39,139 bases of DNA, taken from positions 1-39,139 of the forward strand of contig JAAYIT010000182.1 of NCBI GenBank assembly GCA_012523295.1, written 5' to 3'. Below, in pieces: positions 8,034-39,139 of this stretch. The notes beneath the pieces are model-generated. The model saw only the letters and a list, made by a program, of their open reading frames with translations. It was not told the DNA's origin and did not search any database. Numbering within the stretch: the first letter of the stretch is position 1; each line of letters starts with the position of its first letter. A program made the position numbers and the translations under genes. Origin of the DNA: Porphyromonadaceae bacterium. Its GTDB lineage: Bacteria > Bacteroidota > Bacteroidia > Bacteroidales > Paludibacteraceae.

Positions 8034-8066
8034 TTTCACATTTCTGATTTAAAAATTGTATCTTTG
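8034..8066 (+). promoter_or_regulatory. Bacteroidetes-type promoter for the fabG leader
   Basis: TTTC - N21 - TATCTTTG (8059-8066), placing the TSS about 45 nt upstream of the micro-ORF. Confidence 0.6.
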
Positions 8067-8119: not shown

Positions 8120-8194
8120 ATGAAACAGCCATATAAGGTAAATCTCAAACCCAAGAGAATGATTAATGGCGTGTTCCATACGTCCTTAATGTAA
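8120..8194 (+). CDS. Micro-ORF / leader element, copy 1: MKQPYKVNLKPKRMINGVFHTSLM
   Basis: Start, stop and C-terminal INGxxHTS[L/I]M shared with 35897-35971 and 38886-38963; 18 nt upstream of fabG ATG. Below the ORF-track length cutoff. Confidence 0.6.
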   Translation: MKQPYKVNLKPKRMINGVFHTSLM

Positions 8195-8212
8195 AAAATT
8201 AAATATAATCTT

Positions 8213-8959
8213 ATGAAACTATTAGAAGGAAAAACCGCCATTGTAACCGGCGCTGCACGTGGAATAGGGAAAGCTATTGCACTCCAATTTGCCGCAGAAG
8301 GCTGTAATATAGCATTCACAGACTTAGTAATCGATGAAAACGGCAAAGCAACTGAAAAGGAAATTGAAGCTCATGGAGTGAAAGCCAAAGGATATGCTTC
8401 AAATGCCGCATCATTTGATGAAACACACCGGGTAGTAGAAGAAATCGTGAAAGAATTCGGGCGAGTAGATATTTTGGTAAATAATGCCGGTATCACAAAA
8501 GACGGCCTTATGATGCGTATGTCTGAACAACAATGGGATGCTGTGATAGCCGTGAATTTAAAATCCGCATTCAACTTTATTCACGCCTGCACACCGATAA
8601 TGATGAAACAAAAGGCAGGTTCAATAATCAACATGAGCTCCGTGGTAGGAGTCTCAGGCAATGCCGGACAAACAAATTACTCCGCTTCGAAAGCCGGTAT
8701 GATTGGGTTAGCGAAATCAATCGCCAAAGAGTTAGGCTCTCGTGGTGTTCGTGCCAACGCGATTGCTCCGGGCTTTATCGAAACCGAAATGACACATGCG
8801 CTTACCGATGAACAACGCGCTAAATGGGCGGAAACCATTCCACTTCGTCGCGGCGGTTCACCCGATGAGGTAGCAAAAGTATGTGTATTCCTCGCATCCG
8901 ATTTATCCAGCTACGTGAGCGGACAGGTGATAAATGTTTGTGGCGGGATGAATACGTAA
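8213..8959 (+). CDS. fabG: 3-oxoacyl-[acyl-carrier-protein] reductase
   Basis: TGAARGIGKAIA, NNAG, YSASKAG, PGFIETEMT; SDR family, 248 aa. Confidence 0.93.
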   Translation: MKLLEGKTAIVTGAARGIGKAIALQFAAEGCNIAFTDLVIDENGKATEKEIEAHGVKAKGYASNAASFDETHRVVEEIVKEFGRVDILVNNAGITKDGLMMRMSEQQWDAVIAVNLKSAFNFIHACTPIMMKQKAGSIINMSSVVGVSGNAGQTNYSASKAGMIGLAKSIAKELGSRGVRANAIAPGFIETEMTHALTDEQRAKWAETIPLRRGGSPDEVAKVCVFLASDLSSYVSGQVINVCGGMNT

Positions 8960-10773: not shown

Positions 10774-10922
10774 AAGTCTTAACTTTTTCTGGCAATTGAA
10801 AATTCCGATTTATCGGAGCTGACGCTTATAGCGACAATTTGTATTTTAAATCTGAATAATCAATGCCACTGAAAGCGTCAGCGCTCTATTAACTGAGAAA
10901 AATTCATAAGTCAGGAAGACTT
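10774..10922. repeat. Element A of a palindromic repeat pair flanking the ABC operon
   Basis: Terminal AAGTCTT/AAGACTT; internal CTGACGCTT (10819-10827)/AAGCGTCAG (10873-10881). Aligns end to end with 13345-13471. Confidence 0.7.
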
Positions 10923-10982
10923 AAATGTAAATCGCTAGCAAAATATCTTCAAGATTAATTTGGTCATACCCACATCTCACAC

Positions 10983-13344: not shown

Positions 13345-13471
13345 GTCTTGACTTTTTCTCGCAATCGCGAACTGACGTTTGTAGCAACATATTGCATTTT
13401 TATATCACAATGGTCAATGCCGCTGAAAGCGTCAACGCTCTCTTAACTACAAAATTTTAGAAGTTCAAGAC
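13345..13471. repeat. Element B of a palindromic repeat pair flanking the ABC operon
   Basis: GTCTTGACTTTTTCTCGCAAT...CTGACGTTTGTAGCAACA...TCAATGCCGCTGAAAGCGTCAACGCTCTCTTAACT...GTTCAAGAC; collinear with element A. Confidence 0.7.
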
Positions 13472-13508
13472 GACTTCAATAAGAGAGTGTACGTGCTTTA
13501 TGCTATTT

Positions 13509-15298: not shown

Positions 15299-15309
15299 AT
15301 TTTTATTAA

Positions 15310-15394
15310 GTTTGAAGCGTGAAGCACGAAGCACGAAGCACGAAGTTTGAAGCACGAAGTTTGAAGCGTGAAGTTTGAAGCTCGAAGCACGAAG
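15310..15394. repeat. Heptanucleotide tandem array, 12 units of GNNYGAA (GCACGAA / GTTTGAA / GCGTGAA / GCTCGAA)
   Basis: Direct count of 7-nt units from 15310 to 15393. Confidence 0.92.
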
Positions 15395-15401
15395 TTAATT
15401 T

Positions 15402-17863: not shown

Positions 17864-17940
17864 TGGAGCCTCTTGTCGGATTCGAACCAACGACCCCGAG
17901 ATTACAAATCACGTGCTCTGGCCAACTGAGCTAAAGAGGC
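17864..17940 (-). tRNA. tRNA-Thr (anticodon TGT), CCA encoded
   Basis: Reverse complement GCCTCTTTAGCTCAGTTGGCCAGAGCACGTGATTTGTAATCTCGGGGTCGTTGGTTCGAATCCGACAAGAGGCTCCA; complete cloverleaf. Confidence 0.95.
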
Positions 17941-17944
17941 AAGT

Positions 17945-18041
17945 GGGTAAGCTTACCACATCGCACCGCTACGACCTTCTACCCTTGCTGCGGTCAAGCC
18001 CTGGGGGAGTTCGAAGGGAGCTGGTCGTGTAGGACTTACCC
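17945..18041 (-). ncRNA. ffs: Bacterial small SRP RNA (4.5S-like)
   Basis: GGGUAAG/CUUACCC closing stem, ACGACC/GGUCGU and CCUUC/GAAGG stems, and CCCCCAGG-loop-AGCAAGGG matching the SRP domain-IV symmetric loop (CAGG/AGCA). Confidence 0.85.
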
Positions 18042-18046
18042 GGGCA

Positions 18047-18077
18047 CAAAAGTAGTACATTTTGGTGAATTGGCAAA
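18047..18077 (-). promoter_or_regulatory. Bacteroidetes-type promoter for SRP RNA / tRNA-Thr
   Basis: Minus strand TTTG - N19 - TACTTTTG, 6 nt before the GGGUAAG 5' end. Confidence 0.82.
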
Positions 18078-25390: not shown

Positions 25391-25523
25391 GTAATTGCTT
25401 ACCCTGTCAGAAATCATCCGCCGTCTTGCTGCTGCCCTTTTCAGCCCAAAGACATACATTTCTCTCATCAATCGAACCGCACAAAAGACATTTTAGTCTG
25501 CAAAAATGGAGGTGAGCAGTTAC
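25391..25523. mobile_element. 133-bp terminal-inverted-repeat element, copy 1
   Basis: GTAATTGCTTACC ... GGTGAGCAGTTAC; aligns end to end with 34044-34173 including TGCTGCCCTTT..CA..C.AAGAC. Confidence 0.65.
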
Positions 25524-34043: not shown

Positions 34044-34173
34044 GCAACTACTTACTCTGTAAAAAATCAGCTTCTGTTGTGTTGCTGCCCTTTCAATACG
34101 AAGACCATAACTCACAATAGTTAACCCCATTTACAGACATTCATATAGAATAGCAAATGGGGTGAATAGCTGC
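34044..34173. mobile_element. 130-bp terminal-inverted-repeat element, copy 2
   Basis: GCAACTACTTACTCTG ... GGGGTGAATAGCTGC; homologous to 25391-25523. Confidence 0.6.
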
Positions 34174-35896: not shown

Positions 35897-35971
35897 ATGA
35901 AACAGCCATTTAAGACAAGTCTTAAACCCAAGGAAATGATTAATGGCGTGTTCCATACGTCCTTAATGTAA
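35897..35971 (+). CDS. Micro-ORF / leader element, copy 2: MKQPFKTSLKPKEMINGVFHTSLM
   Basis: Same 25-codon frame as copy 1; last 37 nt identical from ATGATTAATGGCGTG to the stop; 19 nt upstream of the pirin ATG. Confidence 0.6.
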   Translation: MKQPFKTSLKPKEMINGVFHTSLM

Positions 35972-35990
35972 AAAAATAAATTATAACCGT

Positions 35991-36869
35991 ATGAAAACAA
36001 AAAAAGTAGAGCTTGTAGCAGCACCTCGCGAACCGCACTGGGTGGGCGATGGATTCAGAGTACATAATTTTATTCCGAGCGGTTATCACTTAGAAATGCA
36101 GCGGATGAATCCATTTATTTTATTGGATTACAATTCAAAATACACATTCCCGCCTTCCGAAAAACCAAAGGGTGTCGGCACACATCCGCACCGGGGCTTC
36201 GAGACTGTAACTATAGCATACAAAGGGAAAGTAGAGCATCACGACAGCAGTGGAGGCGGCGGAATAATCGGAGAAGGTGATGTACAATGGATGACTGCTG
36301 CAAGCGGAATTTTACACAAAGAATTTCACGAAAGTGAATGGAGCAAAAAAGGCGGTGAATTCCAAATGGTGCAACTCTGGGTAAATCTCCCCGCGAAAGA
36401 CAAAATGTCGCCTCCAAAATACCAGGCCATCACAAAAGATGAGATGGGAATTGTAGTTTTAGAAGAAAATGCAGGAACAGTAGAAGTTATAGCAGGTGAA
36501 TACAACGGAACAAGAGGGAAAGCATCAACATTTACGCCAATACATTTGATGAACGCAAAACTAAATAAGGGCGGAAAAGCCTCCTTTAGTTTTCATGCAA
36601 ATTACAACACGGCACTGCTTGTTTTGGAAGGAAGTATAACCGTAAATGAGGCGGAAGCAGCTCCTACAAATCACTTCGTCTTATTTGAGAATGAAGGAGA
36701 ATCATTCACAGTAGAAGCAGACGAAGACGCTTTGGTGTTAATAATGAGCGGAGAGCCACTCAACGAACCTATTGCCGCGCACGGACCATTTGTAATGAAC
36801 ACAAAGGCTGAAATTTTACAAGCCTTTGAAGATTACAACAAAGGAAAATTCGGCTACTTAGCTGATTAA
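35991..36869 (+). CDS. Pirin family protein (bicupin)
   Basis: NPFILLDYNSKYTFPPSEKPKGVGTHPHRGFETVTIAYKGKVEHHDSSGGGGIIGEGDVQWMTAASGILHKE. Confidence 0.96.
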   Translation: MKTKKVELVAAPREPHWVGDGFRVHNFIPSGYHLEMQRMNPFILLDYNSKYTFPPSEKPKGVGTHPHRGFETVTIAYKGKVEHHDSSGGGGIIGEGDVQWMTAASGILHKEFHESEWSKKGGEFQMVQLWVNLPAKDKMSPPKYQAITKDEMGIVVLEENAGTVEVIAGEYNGTRGKASTFTPIHLMNAKLNKGGKASFSFHANYNTALLVLEGSITVNEAEAAPTNHFVLFENEGESFTVEADEDALVLIMSGEPLNEPIAAHGPFVMNTKAEILQAFEDYNKGKFGYLAD

Positions 36870-38885: not shown

Positions 38886-38963
38886 ATGAAACAGCCATTA
38901 GAAACAAATTTTCACTCAAACCATATGAAGATAAATGGCAAGTTGCATACGTCCATAATGTAA
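38886..38963 (+). CDS. Micro-ORF / leader element, copy 3: MKQPLETNFHSNHMKINGKLHTSIM
   Basis: 26 codons including stop; diverged middle; conserved ATGAAACAGCCA start and GGC..TT.CATACGTCC.TAATGTAAAAAA end. Confidence 0.5.
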   Translation: MKQPLETNFHSNHMKINGKLHTSIM

Positions 38964-39082
38964 AAAATTTGACTTTCGCAAGTTGTTACAGTCTGCTGTA
39001 AAGCTGCTTTTGAAAAAGATATGCTGATTATCAGAGGAATTAAGCAAGCTGGGGCTTTGCCCCAAACCCCACTTCATTTTTT

Positions 39083-39121
39083 GTCTTGACACAAAAAACG
39101 AAGCAAAAAAAGTCAAGACTT
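39083..39121. repeat. GTCTTGAC/GTCAAGAC inverted repeat (AAGTCTTGACTTTTT-type end)
   Basis: GTCTTGAC (39083-39090) / GTCAAGAC (39112-39119). Minus strand AAGTCTTGACTTTTTTTGC resembles the left ends of 10774-10922 and 13345-13471. Confidence 0.7.
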
Positions 39122-39139
39122 CGCCCGCCTCACTCAAAA

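Follow-up and report, generated by a model that had tools for sequence, protein, structure and literature searches.

The 39,139-nucleotide (nt) stretch analysed here (the window; contig JAAYIT010000182.1 of assembly GCA_012523295.1, a member of the Paludibacteraceae) carries a fabG-like gene whose start codon is preceded, at a distance of 18 nt, by a complete 25-codon open reading frame (ORF) of 24 amino acids and a TAA stop. This frame and its two sister copies further along the window, singled out in an earlier note as a new leader or small-protein family, were all found as described there. The repeated unit is longer than the ORF and spans 93-94 nt from the leader ATG to the ATG of the next gene, the A-rich tail included, with the consensus layout ATG-AAACAGCC...AATCGT-ATG over about 93 bp. 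Alignment of the copies revealed a common left end (ATGAAACAGCC), a very conserved centre (AATGGCGTGTTCCATACG), the A-rich tail and a right terminus TAAYCGT with an ATG immediately after it. This unit is a dispersed mobile repeat, essentially confined to one genome, and it has inserted chiefly at the start codons of genes.

Within the window genome (4.0 Mb in 417 contigs) the strict pattern of the element found 61 copies, a relaxed pattern 117, and its 3′ motif, with up to 3 mismatches, at least 179, all far beyond chance when set against the reversed-pattern control, which gave 0-2 matches against the 61 full-pattern and 179 3′-motif copies. In 409 kb of fetched stretches, a profile search located 140 copies, grouped into 110 arrays (81 with one copy, 28 with two and 1 with three) at a tandem period of about 93 nt; the roughly 140 copies studied in detail come from these stretches, in which near-consensus copies are over-represented. 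Copy 3 of the window is followed by another repeat, starting TTGACTTTCGCAAGTT (38970-39139), which replaces its right end, reaches the contig end and also occurs after element copies on two further contigs (C60 and C130). Another miniature element, about 160 bp long and with the ends TGATTATCCG...CGGATAATCA, is inserted in the A-rich tails of copies on four contigs (C208, C93, C230 and C310; loci L083, L038, L086 and L092).

The insertion site is TATGAA(A), occupied in a single orientation. In 75 of the 97 arrays with a resolvable right end, that end coincides with the start ATG of an ORF of 60 codons or more; none of the 97 splits a gene internally, and one lies at the extreme 3′ end of a gene, at TATCTGAAATAG. 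In these stretches, background TATGAAA sites lie for the most part within genes (67 sense, 33 antisense); 34 are intergenic and 22 at or near starts. Start codons were favoured over other noncoding TATGAAA sites with an odds ratio of 6.8, in a test that leaves out five further arrays followed by an insertion sequence (IS) and that compares site classes rather than occupancy rates, since the stretches had been picked for holding elements. The base preceding the ATG is T in 78% of copies compared with 43% of ordinary starts. At the fabG locus, six orthologs of the same genus, whose proteins are 89-94% identical, have no element and begin exactly at the right-hand ATG, so that the leader ATG stands about where fabG formerly started. 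The element has thus entered a start codon and the start of the gene has been restored behind it. In most of these six orthologs a TATCTTTG-like box also lies upstream, at a distance of some 27-40 nt, and, given this and their start at the right-hand ATG, the corresponding box of the window is probably the native fabG promoter.

Table 1. Positions of the element copies, their parts and the adjoining genes in the window.
Feature	Position	Strand	Remark
Promoter-like box TATCTTTG	8059..8066	+	similar box precedes the start in most same-genus orthologs
Element copy 1 (type A, 93 nt), left ATG to base preceding the fabG ATG	8120..8212	+	profile match 1-98; ATG on either flank
Pass-through ORF of copy 1, MKQPYKVNLKPKRMINGVFHTSLM, stop TAA	8120..8194	+	24 amino acids and stop
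Conserved centre AATGGCGTGTTCCATACG of copy 1, nearly the reverse complement of the element's right and left ends when joined	8165..8182	+	
A-rich tail and right terminus of copy 1, ...ATATAATCTT (consensus ATATAATCGT), abutting the fabG ATG	8195..8212	+	
fabG-like short-chain dehydrogenase	8213..8959	+	Pfam adh_short_C2; orthologs begin at the right-hand ATG, the native start
Element copy 2 (type A, 94 nt), ORF 35897-35971	35897..35990	+	
Pirin-family gene, begins at the restored ATG	35991..36869	+	Pfam Pirin and Pirin_C
Element copy 3 (type B), right end lost, ORF 38886-38963, another repeat after it	38886..38969	+	

The flanks of the copies indicate where the strands were exchanged. The right flank follows the host start (ATGAAT, ATGAGA, ATGCAA, ATGATA) while the left side is nearly always ATGAAACAG; one copy has CTG on both sides and another has GTG on the right side only. 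A host-derived right flank combined with a fixed left flank places the exchange within or just before the ATG and makes AAACAG part of the element. The junctions are those of a core exchange without a long target duplication, with host sequence from the ATG onward at the right and element sequence after the ATG at the left. This bears directly on whether the element is a miniature of the repetitive extragenic palindromic (REP) or IS200/IS605 type, moved by a Y1 transposase, its position at starts reflecting only a TATGAAA target and selection against other sites. Six Y1 transposase genes are present in the window genome, and a short, palindromic, strand-specific element whose centre pairs with both ends would suit such an origin. 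However, the exchange point precedes the AAA, and a Y1 cut 3′ of TATGAAA would give the opposite of the variable right and fixed left flanks observed; nor was the unchanged target with a fixed right end expected of REP and IS200/IS605 elements found. None of the six Y1 loci carries the ends of the element, the sole nearby copy (near L142) being 1.5 kb distant, and these loci were rejected as its parents on this mismatch of ends. A Y1-type origin therefore appears rather unlikely.

A different family shares the target. Another repeat, starting CCCACATG, lies directly after TATGAAA in all of its copies (9 of 9), of which seven stand at the right ends of elements and one within an apparent polysaccharide gene. 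Its relative in a genome of a related genus (G009) is complete and encodes a DEDD/IS110 transposase. This G009 IS110 sits exactly at the start codon of a lipoprotein-like gene, with TTATTATGAAA preceding its left end, GCGTATGAAAACACAAAAT at its right end and the right terminus GCGTATGAAA. The window genome (G000) carries IS110 copies of its own on two contigs (C222 and C371), with the left end ATGAAACCACCATG and the right end TTTTCGTATGAAA. The miniature element ends in AATCGTATGAAA; its terminus CGTATGAAA is common to the IS110 elements of both genera, and the match of its right end to that of the resident IS110 extends over TCGTATGAAA, the IS side being known from two copies only. Target and orientation are likewise those of the resident IS110, TATGAAA standing before all nine IS copies and most elements. 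Because the IS110 elements of both genera share its target, right terminus and orientation, we infer that the element is non-autonomous and mobilised in trans by IS110-type (bridge-RNA) recombination. The noncoding region of the G000 IS110 holds two guide-like stretches, GCATGAAAC and CGCGTATGAAA. It aligns well with that of G009, the guide-like positions differing (GAGCATGAAAC vs GATTATGAAAC, CACGCGTATGAAA vs CACGTGTATGAAA), and a guide-like stretch of G009 agrees over ATTATGAAA with the actual insertion site of that IS110. The IS110 transposase ORFs (L146, L163 and L164) lose their frame in a stretch of nine A (GGTAAAAAAAAAG) whose position is identical in copies from the two genera, which could reflect programmed frameshifting or slippage.

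The centre of the element is nearly the reverse complement of its right and left ends when these are joined, and the consensus folds with a z score of -3.5 into a stem H1 (left end with centre) and a stem H3 (CATACGA with TCGTATG), the latter enclosing the host AUG. The three window copies gave z scores of -1.95, -2.86 and -0.79 in order, and copy 1 has CTT in place of CGT, which weakens H3. Six doubly changed, still paired cells, from about four events, were counted in H3, a number reached by none of 5000 shuffles. H1 is nearly invariant and hence carries no covariation signal either way, and the inner hairpin is weakly supported.

Several observations weigh against start-codon insertion by IS110 recombination, or against a purely translational role of the fold. 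The left ends agree only in part, with 5 of the 10 bases after ATGAAA shared between element and IS110 (ATGAAACAGCCAT vs ATGAAACCACCAT), and the IS copies that adjoin elements run off contig ends, which puts their guides and right ends outside the read sequence; for these two reasons the IS110 link is one that we infer. In the guide-like stretch of the G000 IS110, C rather than T precedes ATGAAA. No guide sequence for the element itself was found, and about one fifth of the arrays have no clear gene after them. Two of the copies with compensated H3 changes (C21 and C296) have no right ATG, so that mobility or structure, and not translation alone, probably maintains the H3 pairing. The search for an autonomous IS110 parent with the exact left end of the element also found none. 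The centre, complementary to the element's own joined ends and changing together with the right end even where there is no start codon, would also suit a self-guiding miniature. In this variant, which we regard as unlikely, the centre would serve as a guide, as RNA or single strand, for an IS110-type recombinase acting in trans, and the unit would have been selected for transparency to translation, which would let it occupy start codons.

Whether the reading frame is itself under selection was assessed from 106 gapless type A copies, in which changes from the consensus comprised 115 synonymous, 463 nonsynonymous and 6 stop changes (20%, 79% and 1%), compared with 21%, 75% and 4% expected from the observed mutation spectrum. 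The synonymous share of 19.7% against an expected 21.2% corresponds to a neutral rate of amino-acid replacement, so that the peptide is not conserved as such, while stops are depleted about fourfold. The earlier note had offered a leader peptide (attenuation or translational coupling) and a free small protein, and in the first of these readings MKQP...INGVFHTSLM or its stalling would control many genes. The frame is indeed kept in most copies, diverged and type B ones included, stops are depleted and the copies stand before genes. However, purifying selection on the residues was not found, and ten sampled downstream genes (short-chain dehydrogenase, pirin, S41 protease, FGE-sulfatase domain, PspC, PhoH, Wzz-like, carboxyl transferase, TonB receptor and TrkA) have no common theme, which argues against a regulon. 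The element was also not found in 7 congeners and 350 further genomes of the family (357 in total), so that it is present in 1 of 358 family genomes and the congeners use fabG without it.

A scan of GTDB representatives gave one other record with the element, JAAZMP010000109.1, in which a single type B copy, its leader out of frame, lies ahead of a secreted-protein gene. This contig is filed under a Bacillota metagenome-assembled genome, reads more like Bacteroidales by its genes and may have been misbinned; since the window genome matches its secreted-protein gene only at 71-72%, it comes from a different organism. The damage that was to count against a peptide, stops and frameshifts in homologs, affects a minority of copies (a stop, frameshift or lost start in 25 of 135 scored) in addition to the out-of-frame copy of the outside record. 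Taken together, a functional leader peptide is very improbable, and a free small protein is unsupported for a mobile repeat with neutral replacements in essentially one genome. The third role proposed, a dispersed cassette with a ribosome-loading A-rich tail, came close, the unit being a mobile repeat. An old family-wide leader was rejected on the absence from the 357 family genomes, and a viral origin on zero matches among viral contigs. At the gathering threshold, Rfam 15 gave no match for the element, the window yielding only a signal recognition particle (SRP) RNA and a tRNA.

Depleted stops and openness before genes fit a frame that is translated in passing. The frame is open in 68 of the 74 copies directly before a gene (92%) and in 42 of all 61 others (69%; p 7e-4), a difference that is suggestive only, since the copies are related by descent and their age is uncontrolled; it is open in 24 of 35 last copies that have no gene directly after them, and in 14 of 20 upstream copies of gene-linked arrays. 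Open frames might instead be a relic of young source copies, with no selection at gene starts and no translational coupling. The ends and centre are the most conserved segments, as mobility alone would give, and copies away from genes, whose age is likewise uncontrolled, are often damaged in other ways too. Against such a relic stand the openness of copies next to genes relative to the upstream copies of the same kind of array and the depletion of stops without a depletion of replacements, which leave it possible but doubtful.

The best explanation as a whole, to which we assign a probability of about 0.66, is a non-autonomous miniature element of about 93 bp that inserts at TATGAA(A), mostly at start codons, is mobilised by IS110-type recombination and may couple its frame to the host gene. 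An IS110-family recombinase with its guide RNA would move the element in trans to TATGAA(A) sites, mostly start codons, which it occupies in one orientation. The host ATG stands on either side of it. The left, old ATG, under the promoter and 5′ leader of the gene, opens the 24-codon ORF inside the element, and the A-rich tail, ending in CGT, is followed by the original ATG of the gene, which retains an intact start. While translating the pass-through ORF, ribosomes may melt the stem that hides the restored AUG, terminate about 18 nt upstream of this codon and pass on to the gene; under this hypothesis of translational coupling the peptide itself would be dispensable. Gene starts of Bacteroidales depend on A-rich leaders. 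If the explanation holds, RNA-guided IS110 recombination has spawned a tiny passenger family that colonised start codons at about 180 sites and left the genes functional in outline, each occupied gene gaining a short pass-through frame and a new start behind it. The family would then be a natural case of minimal donors mobilised in trans and a natural experiment on how Bacteroidales genes tolerate an inserted leader. For the annotation of small proteins and leader peptides, the element is a caution that a repeated intact start-to-stop frame before many genes may be a mobile element.

Comparison with known systems places the element near several of them. IS900 of Mycobacterium avium subsp. paratuberculosis, an IS110-family element with the target motif CATGNNNNNNTCTCCTT, is described in the title of Doran et al. 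1997 as targeting translation initiation signals (cited in PMC8141618, which also has the motif). It shares with our element the single orientation and a target that includes the ATG of start signals, but is 1.45 kb long, autonomous and present in some 17 copies, whereas the element here has 93 bp, no transposase and about 180 copies, and the start codon of its host gene is restored after a pass-through ORF. Bridge-RNA work on IS621 and other IS110 elements showed pairing of the left guides with the bottom strand, a shared core and the sufficiency of a 22-bp donor when the RNA is supplied in trans (PMC11208160); among IS1111/IS110 seekRNA elements, mini-IS with short ends also move (PMC11187229). 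Both resemble the present system in that the core is common to target and donor, insertion is strand-specific and uses a fixed, short target, the noncoding region (here that of the IS110) contains guide-like sequences on the top strand, and minimal donors are usable in trans. Those elements are autonomous, whereas this one is not. Rickettsia palindromic elements (PMC10969869) are likewise short and palindromic, with an open frame in a translated position and a surviving host gene, but insert in frame inside ORFs and add residues, whereas here insertion is at the start codon and translation ends before the gene restarts. In Coxiella burnetii, the short repeats of the QMITE2 family are a target of IS1111 (PMC5896051), so that QMITE2 also serves as insertion site for an IS1111/IS110-group element; it has variable direct repeats of 7-11 nt and lies mostly 3′ of genes, whereas here repeat and IS share one target and one right terminus. 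The literature searched, with partial coverage, gave no description of such an element and no natural miniature IS110 derivative of this kind.

Some further features of the window were noted. Two more pairs of short intergenic repeats, each 75% alike, lie at 10844-10926 and 13398-13480 (83 nt) and at 25393-25440 and 34046-34093 (48 nt). A tandem array of 7/14/28-nt units (TGAAGCACGAAGTT) occupies 15308-15396 at the start of a minus-strand ORF, and the Bacteroidales small SRP RNA, with the tRNA gene directly after it, lies on the minus strand at 17867-18048.
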